From positions 1-26,421 of IMG/VR virus record IMGVR_UViG_3300030106_006588: a stretch of 26,421 nucleotides of DNA; one strand, given 5' to 3'. Positions 2,815 through 26,336 of this stretch are shown here, in pieces; the stretch's first letter is position 1, and each line of letters begins with the position of its first letter. The notes under the pieces are model-generated. The model worked only from the letters and a program-made list of their open reading frames with translations. It was not told where the DNA came from and did no database searches. Position numbers and translations under genes: made by a program. The DNA comes from a virus.

Positions 2815-4560
2815 TTGGGTGCTCCATCTATCACGTTCATAGGGGATGAAAATAGTGGTCTATTTAGAAAAAGCGGTGGTAGTGTAGGTTTTGTTTCTGA
2901 TGCTACTGAGATAGCTAATTTTGATAGTAATGGAATAACTATTTCCTCTGGTAATTTAATTATTCCTGACAGTATTATTCATAATGGAGATGCAAATACA
3001 AAGATACGATTTCCAGCTGTTGATACAGTAACGATAGAAACTGCTGGTAGTGAGAGACTAAGAGTTGATTCGTCTGGAAATGTAGGTATAGGTACAACAG
3101 GTCCAGCACGTAATTTGGAAGTTAAAGGTGCATCAGGTGATCCAGTTCATTTTAAATTAGAAGGAGATCCAGCTGACTATGCACGTATAATGTTTGCTGA
3201 TGGCACTGACGATAATATTGGTGAGATACGTTATAACTTTGGTAGCGATTTTATGTCGTTCACTGCAAATGCAACAGAGCGTATGCGTATAGATTCGTCT
3301 GGAAGAGTTGGTATAGGTACAACAAGTCCAGGTTCATATAACGGTGGTTTTGATAATTTCGTTATAAGAGGATCTGGTAATACTGGACTGACTATAAGCA
3401 CTGATGATAATAGCTTCGGACAAATCTGTTTTAGTAATGCTGAAGATGCTCATGTCTCAGGAGCTATACAATATCGTAACAGTGATAACATCCTTGAATT
3501 AAGGGCAGGTGAGTCTAATGGAGCAGTAATTTTTTCTACAGTTTCCAATACAGAACGCATGCGTATAGATTCGTCTGGAAACGTAGGTATTGGAATTACA
3601 GATCCAGATCAAAAAGTTGAAGTGGCAGGTGTTGTCGCTGGAAATGATTTAATGGTTGGTCGAACAGCAAATAGATTTCCAATTATACAAAGGCACACTG
3701 TATCTGCAGGAAGTCAAAGTTTGACTATTACAGCAGGGGCAGGGTTAACAACTAACTCTACCTCAGCACCAACCCTTAATGATGCTTTAAATGGTGCTGC
3801 GATACAAATAGTAGGTGGTAATCCAACAAGTGATGTTTTTGGTGGTGGTATTAGATATTATGCAAATGGTCATACAAGTCCTAATAACCCAGGCACTGGA
3901 AATCAACACGTTTTTTATAGAAGGTCAGCAGCAAATACTTTTACTGAAGCAGTAAGAATAACACATACTGGTCACTTTAAAGCTTCAACTGAAGGTAACT
4001 ATGTAGATATTACTGGAAATTATCATGAAAGTTTCACTAATACAAATAATCAACATATTCACTGGTTTCAGCATAGTGGTAGTACGCAAGCACAACAATT
4101 TGGTATAAGAGTCCGGACAGGTGATGATGGTAATGACTCAAATGCTTTAATACAAGCTTCAAGTGGTAGTGCAACTGCTGGTTTAATTTTACGAAATGGC
4201 TCTTTCCAAAGTCGTAATAATTCTTTTGGTGGAATATCTGACATAAAATTAAAAGAAAATATTGTTGATGCAAAATCTCAATGGGATGACATAAAAGCAA
4301 TAAAATTTAGAAATTTTAATTTTAAAGATAATCCAACACAAAAAATGTTAGGTGTTGTTGCACAAGAAATTGAACTTGTTTCTGCTGGTTTAGTTGAAGA
4401 TATTCCAGATAGAGATCCAGATACAAATGAAGATTTAGGCACTGTTACAAAACATGTAAAAAGTTCTATTCTTTATATGAAAGCAATGAAGTGTTTACAG
4501 GAAGCTATGGCAAAAATAGAGGTGTTAGAAACAGAAGTTGCAGCATTAAAAGCAGCTTAA
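2815..4560 (+). CDS. Tail fibre with C-terminal S74 intramolecular chaperone
   Basis: 581 aa counted from the first canonical start, a TTG; the true protein probably includes the upstream module at 2542-2814 (about 673 aa). The shaft carries three copies of the E-R-x-R-(I/V)-D-S-SG-(N/R)-VGIG module (near bases 3049, 3276, 3551). The C-terminus is a peptidase S74 / endosialidase-type intramolecular chaperone: SDIKLKENI with Ser475 and Lys480 five apart, as in the known Ser-Lys self-cleaving dyad, then VVAQEIE and a C-terminal coiled coil. In the family, this domain drives trimerisation and then cuts itself off N-terminal to the Ser. Fibre and S74 calls are firm; the start is the uncertain part. 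Confidence 0.85.
   Translation: MGAPSITFIGDENSGLFRKSGGSVGFVSDATEIANFDSNGITISSGNLIIPDSIIHNGDANTKIRFPAVDTVTIETAGSERLRVDSSGNVGIGTTGPARNLEVKGASGDPVHFKLEGDPADYARIMFADGTDDNIGEIRYNFGSDFMSFTANATERMRIDSSGRVGIGTTSPGSYNGGFDNFVIRGSGNTGLTISTDDNSFGQICFSNAEDAHVSGAIQYRNSDNILELRAGESNGAVIFSTVSNTERMRIDSSGNVGIGITDPDQKVEVAGVVAGNDLMVGRTANRFPIIQRHTVSAGSQSLTITAGAGLTTNSTSAPTLNDALNGAAIQIVGGNPTSDVFGGGIRYYANGHTSPNNPGTGNQHVFYRRSAANTFTEAVRITHTGHFKASTEGNYVDITGNYHESFTNTNNQHIHWFQHSGSTQAQQFGIRVRTGDDGNDSNALIQASSGSATAGLILRNGSFQSRNNSFGGISDIKLKENIVDAKSQWDDIKAIKFRNFNFKDNPTQKMLGVVAQEIELVSAGLVEDIPDRDPDTNEDLGTVTKHVKSSILYMKAMKCLQEAMAKIEVLETEVAALKAA
3274..3596 (+). repeat. Near-identical ERMRIDSSG-coding repeats in fibre genes (first cluster)
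   Basis: Bases 3281-3303 and 3556-3579 share the core GTATAGATTCGTCTGGA nearly unchanged. The same core recurs in the second fibre (5606-5630) and the third fibre (about 20656, 20927, 21167 with one change). The match holds at synonymous positions, so it is more than amino-acid conservation. Confidence 0.8.
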
Positions 4561-4976: not shown

Positions 4977-6548
4977 ATGGCATACATAGGAGCAGAACCT
5001 GTACCAGGTCAGAATAGAGAAGTTGATGACATATCAAGTGGTTTTAATGGCAGCACTACTGCATTTACCCTTCAAGTTTCCTCATCAAATGTAAGTCCAG
5101 AAAGTGCAAATAACATACTAATAAATCTTGGTGGTGTTTTACAGAATCCCGGAACAGATTATACAATTGCTGCGAGTACCATAACTTTTACTACAGCTCC
5201 AGCAGCCGGTCTTAGTTTCTTTGGATTGATATTAGGAGCTGGAATAAATACAGCAACTGTAGCCGATGACACGATAGGTGCTTCTAAATTAATTGATACA
5301 GCGGTTACCGCAGGTAGTTATACGACTGCTGACATTACAGTTGATGCTCAGGGAAGAATTACAGCTGCAGCAAGTGGAACAATCTCAGGAGCTGAGATAG
5401 CTGATCAGGCCGTAACAAATGCCAAGGTAAATAACTCAGCTGCTATTGCAGGTACAAAGATTAGTCCAGATTTTGGATCTCAGGCAATATCTACAACTAA
5501 TGATTCCGTTACTATCGGTGATAGTATTATTCACTCTGGTGATACAAACACAAAGATAAGATTCCCAGCAGCCGATACAGTCACAGTCGAAACTGCTGGT
5601 TCAGAACGTATGCGTATAGATTCGTCTGGAAACGTAGGTATAGGTTCTTCAGTTACAAATCAATTTGGTCATAAATTATGTATTGAGGATACAAGTGGAT
5701 CAATATTTTATGCACAACACTCAACATCAGGAATACAATTAAAACTGAATTTAGATAATACTAATAATGTTGCATTATTTGGAACAGTTTCTTCAGACGA
5801 CTTACAATTTGTTACCGCAAATAATAATGCCCTTCTTATAGACTCGTCTGGGAGGTTATTAACAGGTGGAGCTACATCTTCGCATGGATCAACAAATGCT
5901 GATGATTTACAGATTGGTGCAAATAATCAAGGTAATCAAACTGGAATTACTTTAGGAAGTGCTAGTGCAAGTAGTGTTAGATTTGCTGACGCTAGTGATG
6001 ACACTTCTGGAGCGATAAATTATATACATAGTGATGATACCATGCGTTTTTCAACTGGATCTAGTGAAAGAGTAAGATTTGATAGTGATGGATTAAAGTT
6101 TAACGGAGACACGTCAGCAGATAACGCACTTGACGACTATGAAGAGGGAACTTTCACGCCACAATTTGCTGGTGTAGGTGGTGGTCCAACCTCAATAACT
6201 TTTGGAACTAACAACGGAGGAAACTATGTAAAAATAGGTCATCTTGTATTTGTTTCAGGCCGATCTGAAATTACTGCTTCTTCAGGTGGTAGTCAGCATT
6301 GGTTAATAACTAATATGCCGTTTGTTTCAAAATCTGGTGGGAAACAATTTGAGTCAATAGGTCATATTGCTCTTGAAAACTTTGCTATTCCTGATGATGT
6401 AATAGACCTTGTTGCAGTTAAGGAGCAAGGTAATAACAATATGCTCTTTAGTGGTACTAGAAAAAATAATACCTTAACTGTTGGTATTAGTCATGGAAAT
6501 GATCAAGTTTATAACGTATCATTTGCAGTTTGTTATAGGACTGCTTAG
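4977..6548 (+). CDS. Tail-fibre protein without S74 domain
   Basis: 523 aa. The N-terminus (MAYIGAEPVPGQNREV, then DDISSGFNGSTTAF) is a common start of phage fibres and is homologous to the orphan module at 2542-2814. Next come a linker (AAIAGTKISPDFGSQ) that is also present at the start of the fibre at 20125, an IIHSGDTNTKIRFPA module shared with the first fibre, one full ERMRIDSSGNVGIG repeat, and a second, divergent SSERVRFDSDG repeat. The C-terminus begins LDDYEEGTFTPQF and continues as a roughly 140-residue globular domain, as in fibres that end with a receptor-binding tip instead of a self-cleaving chaperone. Fibre is firm; tip specificity is unknown. Confidence 0.83.
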   Translation: MAYIGAEPVPGQNREVDDISSGFNGSTTAFTLQVSSSNVSPESANNILINLGGVLQNPGTDYTIAASTITFTTAPAAGLSFFGLILGAGINTATVADDTIGASKLIDTAVTAGSYTTADITVDAQGRITAAASGTISGAEIADQAVTNAKVNNSAAIAGTKISPDFGSQAISTTNDSVTIGDSIIHSGDTNTKIRFPAADTVTVETAGSERMRIDSSGNVGIGSSVTNQFGHKLCIEDTSGSIFYAQHSTSGIQLKLNLDNTNNVALFGTVSSDDLQFVTANNNALLIDSSGRLLTGGATSSHGSTNADDLQIGANNQGNQTGITLGSASASSVRFADASDDTSGAINYIHSDDTMRFSTGSSERVRFDSDGLKFNGDTSADNALDDYEEGTFTPQFAGVGGGPTSITFGTNNGGNYVKIGHLVFVSGRSEITASSGGSQHWLITNMPFVSKSGGKQFESIGHIALENFAIPDDVIDLVAVKEQGNNNMLFSGTRKNNTLTVGISHGNDQVYNVSFAVCYRTA

Positions 6549-11849: not shown

Positions 11850-12644
11850 TTAAATAAGACTCCAACTTCTCCACCATTTAGTAATTATATATTTATCTCC
11901 ACTAATAGGTGGTAAAGCCTCATGAAGCGTTTTAAAATTTGGAATTCCGTTAAAAAATAAGTTATTCCAAGCAATTAATAAGCCTTTTTTTGGTTTTATC
12001 TTTAAATTAAGATGTTTGAAATAAGTTTCTCCCCCATCTTCAACATCATTTAGATATATCATTGTTGTCCAAGTTCTCTGACCCATCCATTCACAATAAG
12101 TTTTGTATTCAGCTGTAAATGGAGCAAAGAAATCATGATGTTCTTTGTAATATTCTCCTATTGCATATTTTTGACCTTGCATATTTTCCCCAATAAAAGG
12201 ATTTAAATTTAACAAATTTACTAATTTTTTATCAATATTTAAAAAAAATTCATCTTCAAAGTATCCTAAACTTGCCGATTGACTTGTTCTGTAATCATTC
12301 ACAAGGCAGGAATCATTTGGATCTGCAACTGTAGATGCTGTTAGTCGAGAATCTATAAAAGTAATCATATCAGTGCATTCGTTGTCTGTTAGAAAATTTT
12401 CGTGTTTATATACTTGAGTAAATGGATATTTAATTCTTTCACATTGAGTAGTTAATCTATTTTTATAAAAATCTAAATAATTAATTTTTTTTGGTTTTTT
12501 CTTAAAAGAACAAACTTTAAACAAATATTTAATATCTTCATCATTTAATTTATATGTATTTTTAAATTCACGTATCACTTGCGTTTTACTAGCACCACTT
12601 AAGGCACATTCCATAAATCTTTCTATTATGTAATCGTTTTTCAC
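11850..12644 (-). CDS. 2OG-Fe(II) oxygenase (prolyl 4-hydroxylase-like)
   Basis: 264 aa from GTG at 12644; an ATG at residue 11 is an alternative start. The C-terminal domain has the complete P4H-type iron/cosubstrate set: H169-x-D171 (YYKEHHDFFAPFT), distal H241 (KTLHEALPP) and Lys251 ten residues later for 2-oxoglutarate binding (GDKYIITKWW), plus the usual MIYLNDVEDGGETYF strand. Residues 1-75 are a separate helical Lys-rich region. Such enzymes hydroxylate protein side chains using O2 and 2-oxoglutarate, and they are common in marine cyanophages; the substrate here is unknown. An array of alternating TTTTAG/CTAAAA half-sites lies just upstream. Confidence 0.88.
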   Translation of the reverse strand: MKNDYIIERFMECALSGASKTQVIREFKNTYKLNDEDIKYLFKVCSFKKKPKKINYLDFYKNRLTTQCERIKYPFTQVYKHENFLTDNECTDMITFIDSRLTASTVADPNDSCLVNDYRTSQSASLGYFEDEFFLNIDKKLVNLLNLNPFIGENMQGQKYAIGEYYKEHHDFFAPFTAEYKTYCEWMGQRTWTTMIYLNDVEDGGETYFKHLNLKIKPKKGLLIAWNNLFFNGIPNFKTLHEALPPISGDKYIITKWWRSWSLI

Positions 12645-20124: not shown

Positions 20125-21981
20125 ATGTCTCAGACTAAGGCTCAATTAATTGATCCAGTAGATGGAACAATAGTAAATGCAGATATAAATGATAGTGCAG
20201 CAATAGCTGGAACAAAAATATCTCCTGATTTTGGATCGCAAAATATAACTACAACTGGATCTTTAGGTGCTAGTGGCTTTAGCACTACTGGAGGGGAAAT
20301 TTCTTTAACTGGAACAGTTCCAAGAATTGGTTTTACAGATTCAAATGCGAATAGTGATTTCAGACTCAAGGTTGATGGTGGTTCTTTTCAAATAGAAGAT
20401 ATTACTAATAGTAGTGCTGATAGATTAGTAATAAATTCATCTGGCAACGTAGGTATAGGCACATCAAGTCCAATTGCAAAATTCGATGTTACAGATGGTA
20501 CAACAAGTATTTCTTTTAATAAGACAAACAATACACCACGAATTGATTTTAAAGGTAATAATGTTTCAGATTTATGCCAAATAAAAGCAGCAGAATCTAG
20601 TGGGGGAGGAATTTTTCAATTTCTTACAAAAACTACTGGTGGCACTGCTACAGAACGCATGCGTATAGATTCGTCTGGATCTGTAAATATTGGATCTACT
20701 GGTTATGCAGGGGGTGGTGTTAATCCAATACTTTATTTAAGAAGCACTAGTGGAAGACAAATGAAAATTCATAATACTGCTAGCTCTACTTGTGGAATAC
20801 AGCTTTCAAATAATACAACAGGTGAGGGAGAAGATGCTGGATTCCAACTTGCAGTTTTAAGTACTGGTGATGGGTTTATAAATAATCCTCATTCTAAAGC
20901 AATAATATTTAATACTGCCAATACAGAACGTATGCGTATAGATTCGTCTGGAAAAATAGGTATTGGTAGAACTGATCCAGTTAACTTTGTTGACATACAT
21001 CGTGGTGCGGATGAAGATAATATTTTAATAGTTCGTGGTCAAGATACAAGTGGTGAATATTGTGCATTAGGTGTAAATGGAAGTAATGCAATCGTTACTG
21101 CTGGAGGTGTAAGCGGTAATAACACTAATTTAGTTTTTAGAACTGCACCTAATGGTAACGAAACAGAACGTATGCGTATAGACTCGTCTGGAAGGGTGCT
21201 TATAGGTACAACTTCTGTTGGAGCACATGAAGGAGGAAATAATTTTACGATTGCAGAAAGTGGACATTGTGGAATGACAATACGATCAAGTACATCTACA
21301 AGTGGAAATATTTATTTTGCCGATGGTACAAGCTCAGGTGAATCAGCTAGAGGAGAAATAAGTTACAGACACGCCACAGATGATTTAAGAATTTTTACCG
21401 CAGCAACAGAACGTATGCGTATCAATAGTACTGGTGATATTTTTATAGCAACTACTACAACAAACCCTGGTTTTGGTAATAATTCTGACCCAGGACATTA
21501 TATAAACCATGTGGGTTATGTAATGCACTCAAGGGATAATGGTACTGCATTATATGTCGCAAGAAATGATAGTACAGGTTCATTAGTTTCATTTAACTAT
21601 AATGGTGGTGGTCAAATAGCAGATATTACAACAAACGGTTCTAGTGTTTCTTATGGTACTGGTTCTGATTACAGGCTTAAGGAAAATATAACTACTTTAA
21701 CAAATGCAATAACAAGATTAAAAAATTTAAAACCTTCAAGATTTAATTTTTTAACAACTCCATCATTAACACAAGATGGATTTATTGCACATGAAGTACA
21801 GGAAGTCGTACCAGAAGCAGTTACAGGAGTAAAAGATGAAGTACGTACAGAAGATGGTGATATGGGACAGAAAAAGGGAGATCCAGTCATGCAAAGCTTA
21901 GATGTTGCAAAACTTGTTCCCTTACTTACTGCTGCTGTACAGGAACTAATTACAAAAGTTGAAACTTTAGAATCTGCTTAG
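20125..21981 (+). CDS. Tail fibre with C-terminal S74 intramolecular chaperone
   Basis: 618 aa. The N-terminus (SQTKAQLIDPVDGTIVNADI, then DSAAIAGTKISPDFGSQ) differs from the other fibres at the start but joins the shared linker also found at 5440-5480. The shaft has repeated modules: a divergent RLVINSSGNVGIG, then ERMRIDSSG three times and ERMRINSTG once, alternating with variable spacers. The C-terminus is an S74 chaperone with Ser514 and Lys519 (SDYRLKENI) and FIAHEVQEVVPEAVTG, then a coiled coil. It should trimerise and release the chaperone by self-cleavage. It sits about 13.6 kb from the other fibre block. Confident class-level call. Confidence 0.87.
   Translation: MSQTKAQLIDPVDGTIVNADINDSAAIAGTKISPDFGSQNITTTGSLGASGFSTTGGEISLTGTVPRIGFTDSNANSDFRLKVDGGSFQIEDITNSSADRLVINSSGNVGIGTSSPIAKFDVTDGTTSISFNKTNNTPRIDFKGNNVSDLCQIKAAESSGGGIFQFLTKTTGGTATERMRIDSSGSVNIGSTGYAGGGVNPILYLRSTSGRQMKIHNTASSTCGIQLSNNTTGEGEDAGFQLAVLSTGDGFINNPHSKAIIFNTANTERMRIDSSGKIGIGRTDPVNFVDIHRGADEDNILIVRGQDTSGEYCALGVNGSNAIVTAGGVSGNNTNLVFRTAPNGNETERMRIDSSGRVLIGTTSVGAHEGGNNFTIAESGHCGMTIRSSTSTSGNIYFADGTSSGESARGEISYRHATDDLRIFTAATERMRINSTGDIFIATTTTNPGFGNNSDPGHYINHVGYVMHSRDNGTALYVARNDSTGSLVSFNYNGGGQIADITTNGSSVSYGTGSDYRLKENITTLTNAITRLKNLKPSRFNFLTTPSLTQDGFIAHEVQEVVPEAVTGVKDEVRTEDGDMGQKKGDPVMQSLDVAKLVPLLTAAVQELITKVETLESA
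20651..21437 (+). repeat. Near-identical ERMRIDSSG-coding repeats in fibre genes (second cluster)
   Basis: Copies at about 20651-20679, 20924-20952, 21164-21192 and, truncated, 21405-21428 share ACAGAACG(T/C)ATGCGTATA followed by GA(T/C)TCGTCTGGA. They match the repeats at 3281, 3556 and 5606 down to silent positions, giving several potential recombination points between fibre genes. Confidence 0.8.
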
Positions 21982-22813: not shown

Positions 22814-22884
22814 GCAAATACAATTGATCCTACATTAGTAAAAATGTATAAGGAAATTAAAGTTGTAAAAAGAAGATGATTCAT
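22810..22884 (-). CDS. 24-aa hydrophobic minigene
   Basis: ATG at 22884 overlaps the upstream TGA (ATGA), and its own TGA overlaps the next GTG (GTGA). It encodes 24 aa starting MNHLLFTTLISLYIFT and ending VGSIVFA, a single hydrophobic helix or cleavable-signal-like peptide. It is too short to be found by length alone; the double stop-start overlap is the support. It may be a real microprotein or a translational relay that lets ribosomes reach the next start. Confidence 0.45.
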   Translation of the reverse strand: MNHLLFTTLISLYIFTNVGSIVFA

Positions 22885-23051
22885 TTTGCTTTTTGATAAA
22901 TGGGAGTCATAATACCACCGCCTTGATCGTCGTCATCATCGCCATCAATTGCACGTAGTATTAGTTCTATTAAAACTAAACAACCTATGGGATAAAAGAC
23001 CCATAAGGCTGCTGTAGAGGAGGATATTAGATATGAATTTTCTAATATCAT
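22881..23051 (-). CDS. Small membrane protein with acidic cluster, in hli operon
   Basis: 56 aa; ATG at 23051-23049 overlaps the upstream hli stop as TAATG. Residues 13-35 are a membrane span (TAALWVFYPIGCLVLIELIL), followed by RAIDGDDDDDQGGG, an Asp-rich cluster, and MTPIYQKAK. Its TGA overlaps the next ATG. The hydrophobic span plus acidic tail suggests a membrane peptide with a stromal/cytoplasmic acidic end. I believe a similar protein follows hli genes in other cyanophages, but cannot verify this here. Function unknown. Confidence 0.6.
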   Translation of the reverse strand: MILENSYLISSSTAALWVFYPIGCLVLIELILRAIDGDDDDDQGGGIMTPIYQKAK

Positions 23052-23194
23052 TAAATAAAACCAGGAATTAGCTGTCCTGTAGTTAGATAAGCACCAACTG
23101 CAGCAACTACACCTAACATTGCTAATTGACCATTTAATCTCTCAGCAATTATTTTTTGTTTTTCAACTGGTTTTGTATAAGATTGAATGTCCAT
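23051..23194 (-). CDS. hli: High-light-inducible protein (Hli), fourth copy
   Basis: 47 aa from ATG at 23194-23192, which overlaps the previous stop as TAATG; a longer frame reaches 23242 but would run into the neighbouring gene. It has the Hli signature AERLNGQLAMLGVVAAVGAY followed by LTTGQLIPGF, with the chlorophyll-ligand E-x-x-N and the membrane helix. Hli proteins bind chlorophyll/carotenoid, protect photosystem II assembly from excess light and are standard cyanophage auxiliary genes. N-terminus is MDIQSYTKPVEKQKI. Firm family call. Confidence 0.88.
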   Translation of the reverse strand: MDIQSYTKPVEKQKIIAERLNGQLAMLGVVAAVGAYLTTGQLIPGFI

Positions 23195-23307
23195 TACACA
23201 TATCCTGGGATTAGTTGTCCTGTAAAGCCATAGACTGTACATATAACCACAAAACCCATCATTGCTGCTCGGCCTTGTGCTTTAAAAAAAATATCCTTGT
23301 TATCCAT
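23194..23307 (-). CDS. hli: High-light-inducible protein (Hli), third copy, short
   Basis: 37 aa, overlapping both neighbours as TAATG (23309-23305 and 23196-23192). The sequence is DNKDIFFKAQGRAAMMGFVV, then ICTVYGFTGQLIPGYV. It keeps the helix and the TGQLIPG ending but has A-Q-G-R-A-A in place of the E-x-x-N-G-x-(A/W)-A ligand motif, so Glu of the chlorophyll-binding pair is missing and Arg is shifted. It may be a divergent Hli or a partner subunit. Family call is good; pigment binding is doubtful. Confidence 0.75.
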   Translation of the reverse strand: MDNKDIFFKAQGRAAMMGFVVICTVYGFTGQLIPGYV

Positions 23308-23459
23308 TAGAATATGCCAGGAATTATATTACCTGTTGTTGCGTATGCACCAACTGCTGCTACGAATCCAAGCATTGCTGCCCAGCCGTTAAATCTTTCT
23401 GCTTCAGGAGTCATGATGTTGTACCTTTGAGTAATTGTAAATTGGGAATTGATTTTCAT
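23307..23459 (-). CDS. hli: High-light-inducible protein (Hli), second copy
   Basis: 50 aa from ATG at 23459, preceded by AAGGAG 6 nt upstream, the best Shine-Dalgarno of the operon; a longer frame to 23513 is rejected for that reason. Sequence starts MKINSQFTITQRYNIM and carries AERFNGWAAMLGFVAAVGAY followed by ATTGNIIPGIF, with E-x-x-N of the chlorophyll-binding helix. Gene spacing to the first hli copy is 10 nt, and the downstream start overlaps its stop. A thylakoid membrane protein in the host. Firm. Confidence 0.88.
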   Translation of the reverse strand: MKINSQFTITQRYNIMTPEAERFNGWAAMLGFVAAVGAYATTGNIIPGIF

Positions 23460-23469
23460 CCAAGTCTCC

Positions 23470-23661
23470 TTAGAAGATTCCTGGAATAATCTGACCGGTT
23501 GTTGAATAAGCACCTATCAAAGCCACGAAACCAATCATTGCCCAACGTCCATTAGCTTTTTCAGCCTCTTCTGGATAACCCTTATAATTAGGATCTATCT
23601 CAGTATGTGGCTCAATAGAATAGATGTTTTGGCGATTGCCACTTTCTGTAACTGTTGTCAT
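23470..23661 (-). CDS. hli: High-light-inducible protein (Hli), first copy
   Basis: 63 aa from ATG at 23661. The N-terminal 30 residues are polar (TTVTESGNRQNIYSIEPHTE); then come EEAEKANGRWAMIGFVALIG and AYSTTGQIIPGIF, the full Hli motif with E-x-x-N-G-R-x-A-M. Of the four copies this has the complete motif with Arg, so it is the best candidate for canonical pigment binding. It is the first gene of the operon and lies directly downstream of the NtcA-type promoter (23684-23724). Confidence 0.9.
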   Translation of the reverse strand: MTTVTESGNRQNIYSIEPHTEIDPNYKGYPEEAEKANGRWAMIGFVALIGAYSTTGQIIPGIF

Positions 23662-23683
23662 TAGGTATTTATATCTTCTTTAT

Positions 23684-23724
23684 ATTTTACACTTGTTACA
23701 TTTTGTAACAGTACTTAATATTAC
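23684..23724 (-). promoter_or_regulatory. NtcA-type activated promoter of the hli operon
   Basis: On the - strand, GTAATATTAAGTAC (23724-23711) is a perfect GTA-N8-TAC palindrome, the NtcA binding consensus. After 21 nt comes TAAAAT (23689-23684), matching the TAN3T -10 box. NtcA-activated cyanobacterial promoters have 20-24 nt here and no -35. The start would be about 15 nt before the hli ATG at 23661. Confidence 0.68.
23694..23710. promoter_or_regulatory. TGTTACA/TGTAACA dyad between NtcA box and -10
   Basis: TGTTACA (23694-23700), TTT, TGTAACA (23704-23710): a perfect 7-bp inverted repeat of 17 bp, lying in the position of a -35 box next to the GTA-N8-TAC site. It looks like a second binding site for a dimeric regulator of the CRP/FNR class or for a repressor. 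Confidence 0.5.
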
Positions 23725-23765
23725 TTAACAAAAATAATGTATACTATTAGTTTTATTTATATCTC

Positions 23766-26336
23766 TTACTGTGATTGTCTTTCTGGGAGTATAGTTACTG
23801 AGGATTTAAATTTTTCGTCAGAATTTCTTATTGCCAATCCTTTTATAAATGGTCTTCCTTTTTTACTAAAGCTAATTATTTCTTTCATTCCCAACTGATT
23901 TTTACAACAATCTAATAAAAGGGCTATAAATCTTTTCTGACCTACTGGCTTAGAACCTGTATCTTCACAATATGAACAATATGAGGCATAAAGATGAAAA
24001 TTACTATTTACATATCTTTCCTTAGAATCTTTAGCAGCTGGGATTTTTTTACCCACAGCGGATACTGACTCTGGTGAATGAACTACTTCAGACTGTAGCC
24101 ATTCAACTAAATTATTACTAGTTAAAAGAATACTATTTCTTACAGCTTTTAAATGATCAACTTTTTCATAAGTATCAAGTAAATATTCTCTCATTTCTTT
24201 AGTTTCCATTTGTAAGACCCAATTAACTAATCCTGGTAAATAAGACTTCCATAACCCCTTTACCTCGCCATTTTCAAGTTTTATCATCTCTACTGCTTCA
24301 GAATTTTTATCCCAAAGTGGCCTGTTAAATTCAACAGTTAATCTTCTTCTTGTAAGACCAGAGGTATTATCAGTCGTTTGTATTGGCTCATTGGCACAAA
24401 CCATAACCATTCCTGTATATACAAAAGGCTCTCCAACATTTTTATTTTTTTCTTCGAATCTTAAATTATCTCCTCCTGTTAAAGCTTTGAATATTTGTGC
24501 AGATCCTCCATATCTTTCTGAGTCATTAATCAAAGTAAGTCTTTTACCTTTGATAGAAGCAATTTCAAAACGACTTTGCTCTAATTGATTTAATGTTGTA
24601 GATGCATAATTACCATTACCAATTAAAGCACAACATAAATTAGCGAAGGTTGATTTACCTCTACCACCAGGGCCAATAACTTCCAAGAATCGTTGTAATT
24701 CATGGCCTTTCCCTACTAAACATGCTTTTAACCATGCTCTTAATACTTGTACTCTTTCCTCATCATTGTATTGAGTTTTCCTTAACCATTGAATTATAGG
24801 TCCTGATTCAGCGTTAGGATCATACTCAAAATCTAAACCCCAAGTTAGATAATTTTCTTGGTCATGTGGGAGAAACTCTGATGTGCTCATTTCTAAGACA
24901 CCATTACGAAAAGCTAATTTGTCAGGATCATCATTCCAATAAGGTTGAGTAATATAAGCTTTTGTTAAATTTGTTACATCAGATAAAAGATGAGATGTAA
25001 AGCCACCTGGGGTTGGTATACTTTCTCTTAAAAATAAATCCTGAACAAAATGTTTATATTCATCTTTATATTCTTCTCTTCGCCATGTTCCCTTTTTAGA
25101 TTGGTAAAACATAAATGTATCATATTTAGGATCATATCTCCAACCACATTCAATAACCATTCCTGTAACCATTTCAGCTAATTCCGAAGCCGGTGCAGTT
25201 TTAGGTCTTCCTTTGTTGCTAATTTTTTCTTTTATATTTAATTTTTCTTTCTTTGTAGGTTCGCCTATTAACTCGGTTAATACTTGATTTACAAATGGCA
25301 TGGGTAATTCAGCATTATCTTGTTGAAATGCTTTTTTAGCCTTTTCTGCTAATACATCTGCCGATTCAACAACAAAGCCTCCTACGTCTATATATCCGTC
25401 TTCTTTTGCCATAGCTCGAAGATGATGTAAACCACAACGATTTTCTGGGGCAGGACCACCTTCTACGACTTCAAATGTATCCCATTTCTTTTCACATACC
25501 CCATCTTGAAAATTCTCTGCTTGTTTTGACCAATCAATCCAATCACCAAGTAAAGCCTCATCTACTTGTTTAAGACTCATACCTACCTTTAACCAGTCAT
25601 CATAATCAGCCGATCTTTCAGGATTTAAATGATCTAGATAAATTTTTGCTTCATTAACATATTCTTCTTGCTGATATTCCGATCCTTCCTCATAATCTAA
25701 ATTTACTTGCTGGGTTACAATACCTGATTTTACTGGTTTTTTATATTTATTTAAAGGATATGCCTTAGCTATTGCATCGTATAACCACTCAGGCATTTCT
25801 GGAGGATTTTTTGCAAATTCAAATCCACCATGTTGAGTTGTAAAATAACCTTCTGTATCTGGATGACTACCCATTATTGCACCTTGTCTAGATCTAAATA
25901 AGATTTCAAAACAAGGAATACCTATTTTTATCGTTGCTTTATCAGGTAATAAATTTAATTTTGCAGCTGGTACACTGAAAAGCATTCTCTGCCTATCTGG
26001 TTTTCCAGATGAAATAGTAAGGGTTGGTGGAAAAGCACCCGATATAGGAGCTCCTGCAAGCTCTTCAAGGTCTTTTATCGCATCTGTGCCATCTATATCT
26101 ACCCAAACTAAACCACCGCTGTTTGACCATACACCTGTAATTAATCCAATCCCTGTTGCCTTTCCCTGATCAAACTCACGTTTTATCTCTTCTATTGAAT
26201 ATGGTTGAGTAGTCCACCCAGCTACATATGCCCTTTTACCTTGTAATGGAGTAAGAGCCCAATCTTTAGGGATTAAATCAAAATTAATCTCTCCGGGTTT
26301 TAAATGATTATTTGGTTCTGGTGATGCAGTTGGCAT
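23766..26336 (-). CDS. Prim-pol / D5-type primase-helicase
   Basis: 856 aa. Domains in order: N-terminal bifunctional primase-polymerase (AEP) with D80-x-D82 (LVWVDIDGT) and FEILFRSRQGAIMGSHPDT; a PriCT-2-like helical region at about 235-320 (DYDDWLKVGMSLKQ, CEKKWDTFE); a D5-type N-terminal region near 395-515; an SF3 helicase with Walker A G555-x-G-G-x-G-K561-S (GPGGRGKST), Walker B-like LTLINDSE (601-608) and sensor VMVCANEP (644-651) with Arg663-665. It unwinds and primes phage DNA. All three helicase motifs are intact. The start has no strong Shine-Dalgarno. Firm for family; the exact replication partner genes are outside the window. Confidence 0.9.
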   Translation of the reverse strand: MPTASPEPNNHLKPGEINFDLIPKDWALTPLQGKRAYVAGWTTQPYSIEEIKREFDQGKATGIGLITGVWSNSGGLVWVDIDGTDAIKDLEELAGAPISGAFPPTLTISSGKPDRQRMLFSVPAAKLNLLPDKATIKIGIPCFEILFRSRQGAIMGSHPDTEGYFTTQHGGFEFAKNPPEMPEWLYDAIAKAYPLNKYKKPVKSGIVTQQVNLDYEEGSEYQQEEYVNEAKIYLDHLNPERSADYDDWLKVGMSLKQVDEALLGDWIDWSKQAENFQDGVCEKKWDTFEVVEGGPAPENRCGLHHLRAMAKEDGYIDVGGFVVESADVLAEKAKKAFQQDNAELPMPFVNQVLTELIGEPTKKEKLNIKEKISNKGRPKTAPASELAEMVTGMVIECGWRYDPKYDTFMFYQSKKGTWRREEYKDEYKHFVQDLFLRESIPTPGGFTSHLLSDVTNLTKAYITQPYWNDDPDKLAFRNGVLEMSTSEFLPHDQENYLTWGLDFEYDPNAESGPIIQWLRKTQYNDEERVQVLRAWLKACLVGKGHELQRFLEVIGPGGRGKSTFANLCCALIGNGNYASTTLNQLEQSRFEIASIKGKRLTLINDSERYGGSAQIFKALTGGDNLRFEEKNKNVGEPFVYTGMVMVCANEPIQTTDNTSGLTRRRLTVEFNRPLWDKNSEAVEMIKLENGEVKGLWKSYLPGLVNWVLQMETKEMREYLLDTYEKVDHLKAVRNSILLTSNNLVEWLQSEVVHSPESVSAVGKKIPAAKDSKERYVNSNFHLYASYCSYCEDTGSKPVGQKRFIALLLDCCKNQLGMKEIISFSKKGRPFIKGLAIRNSDEKFKSSVTILPERQSQ

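Follow-up and report, generated by a model that had tools for sequence, protein, structure and literature searches.

The window analysed here is a stretch of 26,421 nt from an IMG/VR virus record that is 69,128 bp long and has a G+C content of 35%. On its minus strand, a primase-helicase gene and an operon of small genes headed by hli1, which encodes a high-light-inducible protein, flank a 104-bp intergenic stretch upstream of hli1 that is referred to below as the promoter region (Table 1). Hli1 is 66% identical to Hli03 of phage P-HM1, and the 56-aa protein of the cassette shares 66% identity over 50 residues with PHM1_203 of the same phage, while the primase has its closest relative among cultured phages in S-EIV1, a Synechococcus phage, at 34% identity. 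The hli cassette with its 56-aa protein (22881-23661) is also found in T4-like myoviruses such as P-HM1, despite the S-EIV1-like primase, and a transfer of the cassette between unrelated lineages of phages is probable. The record also encodes the photosystem II protein D1 (psbA, phrog_182) at about 36561-37649 on the plus strand, outside the window. Judging from psbA, the hli genes and the S-EIV1-like primase, the phage would infect a picocyanobacterium, and the low G+C content is compatible with Prochlorococcus.

Table 1. Genes and promoter elements at the hli locus, in window coordinates.
Feature	Position	Strand	Basis
primase-helicase (Prim-Pol, PriCT_2, D5_N), upstream gene	23766..26336	-	Pfam
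array of four half-sites, GTTACATTTT GTAACAGTAC TTAATATTAC TTAACAAA, in 10-bp steps	23695..23732	+	upstream pair weaker
GTA-N8-TAC (GTAATATTAAGTAC), candidate NtcA box inside the half-site array	23711..23724	-	sequence match
core HLR1-type box, two half-sites 10 bp apart	23692..23712	-	conservation and host matrix rank
-10-like hexamer TAAAAT	23684..23689	-	invariant in 13 aligned promoters (entropy 0)
hli1, 63 aa high-light-inducible protein	23470..23661	-	phrog_178, E 1.4e-26
hli2, 35 aa (MTPEAERFNGWAAMLG...)	23307..23414	-	translation
hli3, 37 aa	23194..23307	-	phrog_178, E 3.2e-12
hli4, 47 aa	23051..23194	-	phrog_20629, E 3.2e-21
56 aa small protein, hli cassette member	22881..23051	-	phrog_7843

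Elsewhere in the window, a 2OG-Fe(II) oxygenase is encoded at 11850-12644 on the minus strand (phrog_61, E 3e-24), a type of gene that others have cited as a cyanophage link to 2-oxoglutarate. Repeated ERMRIDSSGNVGIG-type segments occur in three large proteins, encoded on the plus strand at 2815-4560, 4977-6548 and 20125-21981, which are probably tail fibre proteins.

Read towards hli1, the box GTAATATTAAGTAC is followed by 21 nt (23710-23690) and the hexamer TAAAAT, and another 22 nt separate the hexamer from the ATG, which starts at the 23rd nt after it, so that the region has the form GTAATATTAAGTAC-T-GTTACAAAATGTAACAAGTG-TAAAAT-(22 nt)-ATG. A first, sequence-only reading had described this arrangement as a perfect palindrome with the geometry of a class II NtcA-activated promoter. 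Its spacings proved exact, and the 21 nt fall within the 20-24 nt that precede TAN3T in such promoters; the half-sites are symmetric, whereas the middle of the box is asymmetric. Overlooked in that reading was TGTTACAAAATGTAACA (23710-23694), a stretch that separates the box from the -10 and is better conserved than the box itself. No sigma-70 promoter with a -35 was predicted at the hli promoter, nor is there a TTGACA-like -35.

The box occurs about as often as chance predicts. GTA-N8-TAC occurs eight times in the window, compared with 5.8 +/- 2.2 in shuffled sequences (20 of 100 shuffles reach eight), and 17 times in the 69-kb record, where 13 are expected; the class II pattern in full (box, then 20-24 nt, then TAN3T) is present six times in the record against 3.5 +/- 2.3. 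Counting, which had been proposed as a check on the NtcA interpretation, hence finds neither the box nor the class II geometry over-represented relative to shuffles. By proportion, about 0.003 class II patterns are expected per 104-bp intergenic region on one strand; the pattern at the hli promoter is therefore not trivially due to chance, which makes conservation the better test.

Relatives were taken to be viral contigs with a related primase and an hli operon behind the primase gene, and 13 of their promoters were aligned. GTA-N8-TAC is intact in 6/13; L006-L009 are one base off it (TAC to TAG), and L010-L012, L053, L055 and L086 have nothing like it in the aligned hli promoter. On the primase tree, the box is present throughout one subclade, moderately supported (80/88), to which it is limited, and it is missing from the sister lineage and from all outer branches, though these keep the operon, the -10 and the HLR1-type element described below. 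When the whole collection was searched for the promoter minus the box, 20 viral contigs were retrieved, all of them at hli starts, 11 with the box. Homologous phages hence keep the hli operon and its promoter without the box, an outcome that the sequence-only reading had itself named as refuting its NtcA proposal. As side observations, in L082, L084 and L085 hli1 begins MTQVTESGG... and no HLR1 or NtcA match lies upstream, while a TTTAAAATATTAAGGAAA stretch is kept, and in L013-L021, as in other primase relatives, the primase is directly followed, in place of hli, by a gene for a small protein (MIKTFIALAATTASVAAPAAFAG...) of secreted or porin-like type.

What is conserved in the promoter region is a pair of direct repeats. 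GTWACA-N4-GTWACA is kept in 13/13 aligned promoters with variable flanks (one relative has ATTACA in the first half-site), always with a spacing of 10 bp. Averaged over columns, the entropy of these half-sites is 0.15 (permutation p 0.002) and that of the -10 is 0.0, while the six half-site columns of the NtcA box average 0.62 (p 0.78) and show no more conservation than the rest of the intergenic columns. Between relatives, the central T/A of each half-site flips, so that dyad symmetry is lost and regained and the direct repeat stays, a pattern that we infer to be the trace expected of a tandem-binding, OmpR-type regulator and not of a palindrome-binding one like NtcA. The same flips bear on the reading of TGTTACAAAATGTAACA as an RNA hairpin or a terminator of the primase gene instead of a protein site. 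It does lie downstream of that gene, and in the window its 7-bp arms are exact inverted repeats of each other, but its folding is no better than that of shuffles (z 0.06), it was not called as a terminator, and its symmetry is lost in relatives (GTAAC/GTAAC, GTTAC/GTTAC) that retain the half-sites, which leaves this reading barely plausible.

The repeats resemble HLR1, the high-light element of cyanobacteria with the consensus KTTACAWW-N2-KTTACAWW, which is bound by RpaB (PMC13421787; PMC6331805). Towards hli1, the core box reads GTTACAAA-AT-GTAACAAG (23709-23692) and on the plus strand GTTACATT-TT-GTAACAGT (23695-23712), matching the consensus at 14/16 positions in both cases. This level, two letters off the consensus, is also reached at 13 further positions of the 69-kb record. 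When scored with a matrix based on 11 HLR1 sites that lie in hli promoters of cyanobacteria (ten of them from cyanobacteria other than marine picocyanobacteria, one from Prochlorococcus, and none from a phage), the core box ranks 1 of 138,222 positions in the record, and the probability that the top hit lands in the hli promoter region by position alone is about 0.0015. The consensus was taken from the literature and the matrix from host sequences. HLR1 itself was brought in once the alignment had been seen, and these statistics confirm a pattern and do not amount to a blind prediction.

Together with a weaker pair upstream, the core box forms four half-sites in 10-bp steps, which score 20.4 as the best such array in the 69-kb record, the runner-up scoring 9.2. 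Relatives that lack the NtcA box (L010-L012, L053, L086) have better arrays, with scores of 27-31, and at the place of the core box the HLR1 match is 15/16 in L003/L079 and L053/L073 and a perfect 16/16 in L055/L080. Since box-less relatives have the better arrays and the palindrome lies inside the array, the NtcA palindrome would thus appear to be a by-product of, or a late addition to, the row of half-sites. Arrays with steps of 8, 11 or 12 bp do not single out the hli promoter in the record. The 9-bp pair TTTACACTT-GTTACATT (from 23686) also ranks first in it, because its GTTACA half-site is shared with the core box, and a fifth half-site over the -10 is therefore possible.

Half-sites of this kind might instead serve another OmpR-type regulator of the host, such as RpaA or PhoB, or a repressor of the phage's own. 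RpaA, RpaB and PhoB all occur in Prochlorococcus, and some target promoters are common to RpaA and RpaB. The period of 10 bp, however, differs from the 11 bp of the Pho box, CTTA-N7-CTTA (PMC3037559), the half-sites match hli promoters of hosts specifically, and a phage repressor would leave unexplained why the same boxes occur in unrelated T4-like phages and in hosts. Regulation by another factor of this kind therefore seems quite improbable. A Pho box in particular was rejected, the array having 10-bp steps and the hli promoter not being among the best in the record at 11-bp spacing.

The HLR1 match extends to other cyanophages. A non-redundant set of 40 regions ahead of phage hli operon heads was compared with 313 further upstream regions from the same loci: matches of at least 14/16 were found in 19/40 hli upstreams and 12/313 others (p 7e-13), and matches of at least 15/16 in 8/40 and 1/313 (p 1e-7), the sole control at the latter level being the P-HM1 hli site viewed from its divergent gene. 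NtcA boxes are unenriched (3/40 versus 16/313, p 0.37), and the reversed HLR1 motif and other spacings gave a weaker signal or none. The hli regions are richer in A+T than the controls (0.71 vs 0.65), and AT-matched controls agree. Against such controls, with regions that share an hli start removed, 22/44 hli upstreams score above the 99th percentile of the controls when the spacing is 10 bp, compared with 2-14/44 at spacings of 8, 9, 11, 12 and 13 bp. Overall, about half of the cyanophage hli operon heads examined, counted without redundancy, match the host high-light box. Among cultured T4-like phages, P-HM1, P-SSM2, P-SSM3, P-SSM4, P-SSM7, P-TIM68, S-SSM7 and metaG-MbCM1 have HLR1 matches of 14 or 15 and P-RSM6 one of 13, and no match was found in the hli upstream regions of S-CRM01 and S-CREM1. 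None of seven T7-like podoviruses (0/7) has a match of at least 13, and hli adjoins virion or psbA genes there. On the host side, the Prochlorococcus hli operon heads L155, L157 and L185 carry 16/16 boxes, often two of them about 21 bp apart.

The T4-like hli03 promoters (P-HM1, P-SSM2, P-SSM4, P-SSM7, P-TIM68), which precede a cassette homologous to the one studied here (66% identity for hli1), likewise have HLR1-like pairs near the -10, but they are of the TTGACA/TATAAT type with pairs placed both at the -35 and downstream from the -10, whereas the array in the window lies upstream only. In several T4-like hli promoters (L101, L114, L115, L200-L205), HLR1-like pairs flank TATAAT on both sides, one over the TTGACA -35 and one about at the transcription start (e.g., GTTACATAAATTTACAAA, 16/16). 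HLR1 is known in hosts, and as far as the searched literature shows, its spread through cyanophage hli promoters is apparently undescribed: a literature search, to which subscription journals were largely closed, found no mention of cyanophage genes being controlled by RpaB or through HLR1. For phage psbA, HLR1 control was considered and rejected, the upstream region holding only a weak 14/16 HLR1-like site, at 36496. Four further 14/16 HLR1-like matches cluster at 60056-60390 of the record, outside the window.

The hli operon would therefore most probably (about 0.7) be expressed from a host-type HLR1/RpaB promoter, with repression at low light and release at high light. With the cyanobacterial HLR1/RpaB regulon (hliA, hliC, psbA2, nblA), the promoter shares the half-site, the 10-bp spacing, the predicted placement over the core promoter and the gene family; it differs from it in being phage-borne, in a core box that matches at 14/16 and has GTAACA as one half-site, in having four half-sites in a row, and in lacking a clear -35. 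Transcription would start near 23677, about 7 nt past TAAAAT. Relative to this predicted start, the core box is located at about -35 to -15 and the upstream pair at about -55 to -38, so that tandem half-sites of the HLR1 kind would span about -55 to -15, next to a conserved -10 and without a good -35. In hosts, HLR1 represses when located at -38 to +23 and activates at -45 to -66, and hliA and hliC belong to the repressed set (PMC13421787). The core box would overlap the polymerase site at the same position from which RpaB represses host hli genes, and low light would therefore most likely keep the operon down and high light free it.

RpaB of the host would bind the phage array, as its half-sites suggest, and exclude polymerase from the core promoter until high light removes it; repression would be the sign and light the signal. 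The weaker upstream pair could aid cooperative binding of RpaB. As there is no clear -35, an activator is possible, a role that NtcA could fill in the subclade of the window. Prochlorococcus MED4 encodes both RpaB and NtcA (PMC6778093).

A promoter activated by NtcA alone, in which NtcA with 2-oxoglutarate at about -41 would recruit polymerase without a -35, agrees with the exact half-sites, the 21-nt spacing and the missing TTGACA-like -35. It also has precedents: between 1 and 16 NtcA sites per genome have been proposed in T4-like cyanophages (PMC3037559), and these too are GTA-N8-TAC boxes in phage intergenic regions (Sullivan 2010, PMC3037559), although the present box belongs to a different phage lineage, with a primase nearest S-EIV1, and is not conserved among relatives. 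In Synechocystis, the NtcA motif of scpB, which like the present one lies directly upstream of HLR1, one nucleotide apart, before an hli-type gene, binds NtcA in vitro in gel shifts, unstimulated by 2-oxoglutarate (PMC6331805); in the phage, the likeness is a sequence match within one subclade. Against NtcA as sole regulator stand the branches that have the operon, the -10 and HLR1 but not the box, the background-level conservation of its columns, and the missing enrichment of the box at phage hli promoters and of its geometry in the genome. Such a promoter is accordingly very unlikely, and NtcA control as a general feature of the hli operon is not supported by the sequences compared.

By analogy with scpB, NtcA input may still exist in the subclade of the window, where RpaB on the array, which many cyanophage hli operons share, would respond to light and NtcA, on a box that would have arisen within the array through one substitution, to nitrogen. 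The order and 1-nt separation of the two motifs, as in scpB, and retention of the box throughout the subclade are in line with this; however, the surrounding tract is equally conserved in the box-less L006, so that the persistence of the box does not need NtcA. Joint control, which is compatible with the RpaB promoter and additional to it, is thus unlikely overall, and if true, it would mean that a phage promoter integrates two host signals, for light-and-nitrogen control of photoprotection during infection. The general idea that the phage hli operon is wired to a host stress regulator holds up, while nitrogen sensing through NtcA as its main switch is not supported.

Cyanophages carry photoprotection genes derived from their hosts. 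The HLR1/RpaB promoter proposed here predicts that phage hli genes would follow the light and redox state of the host via RpaB.
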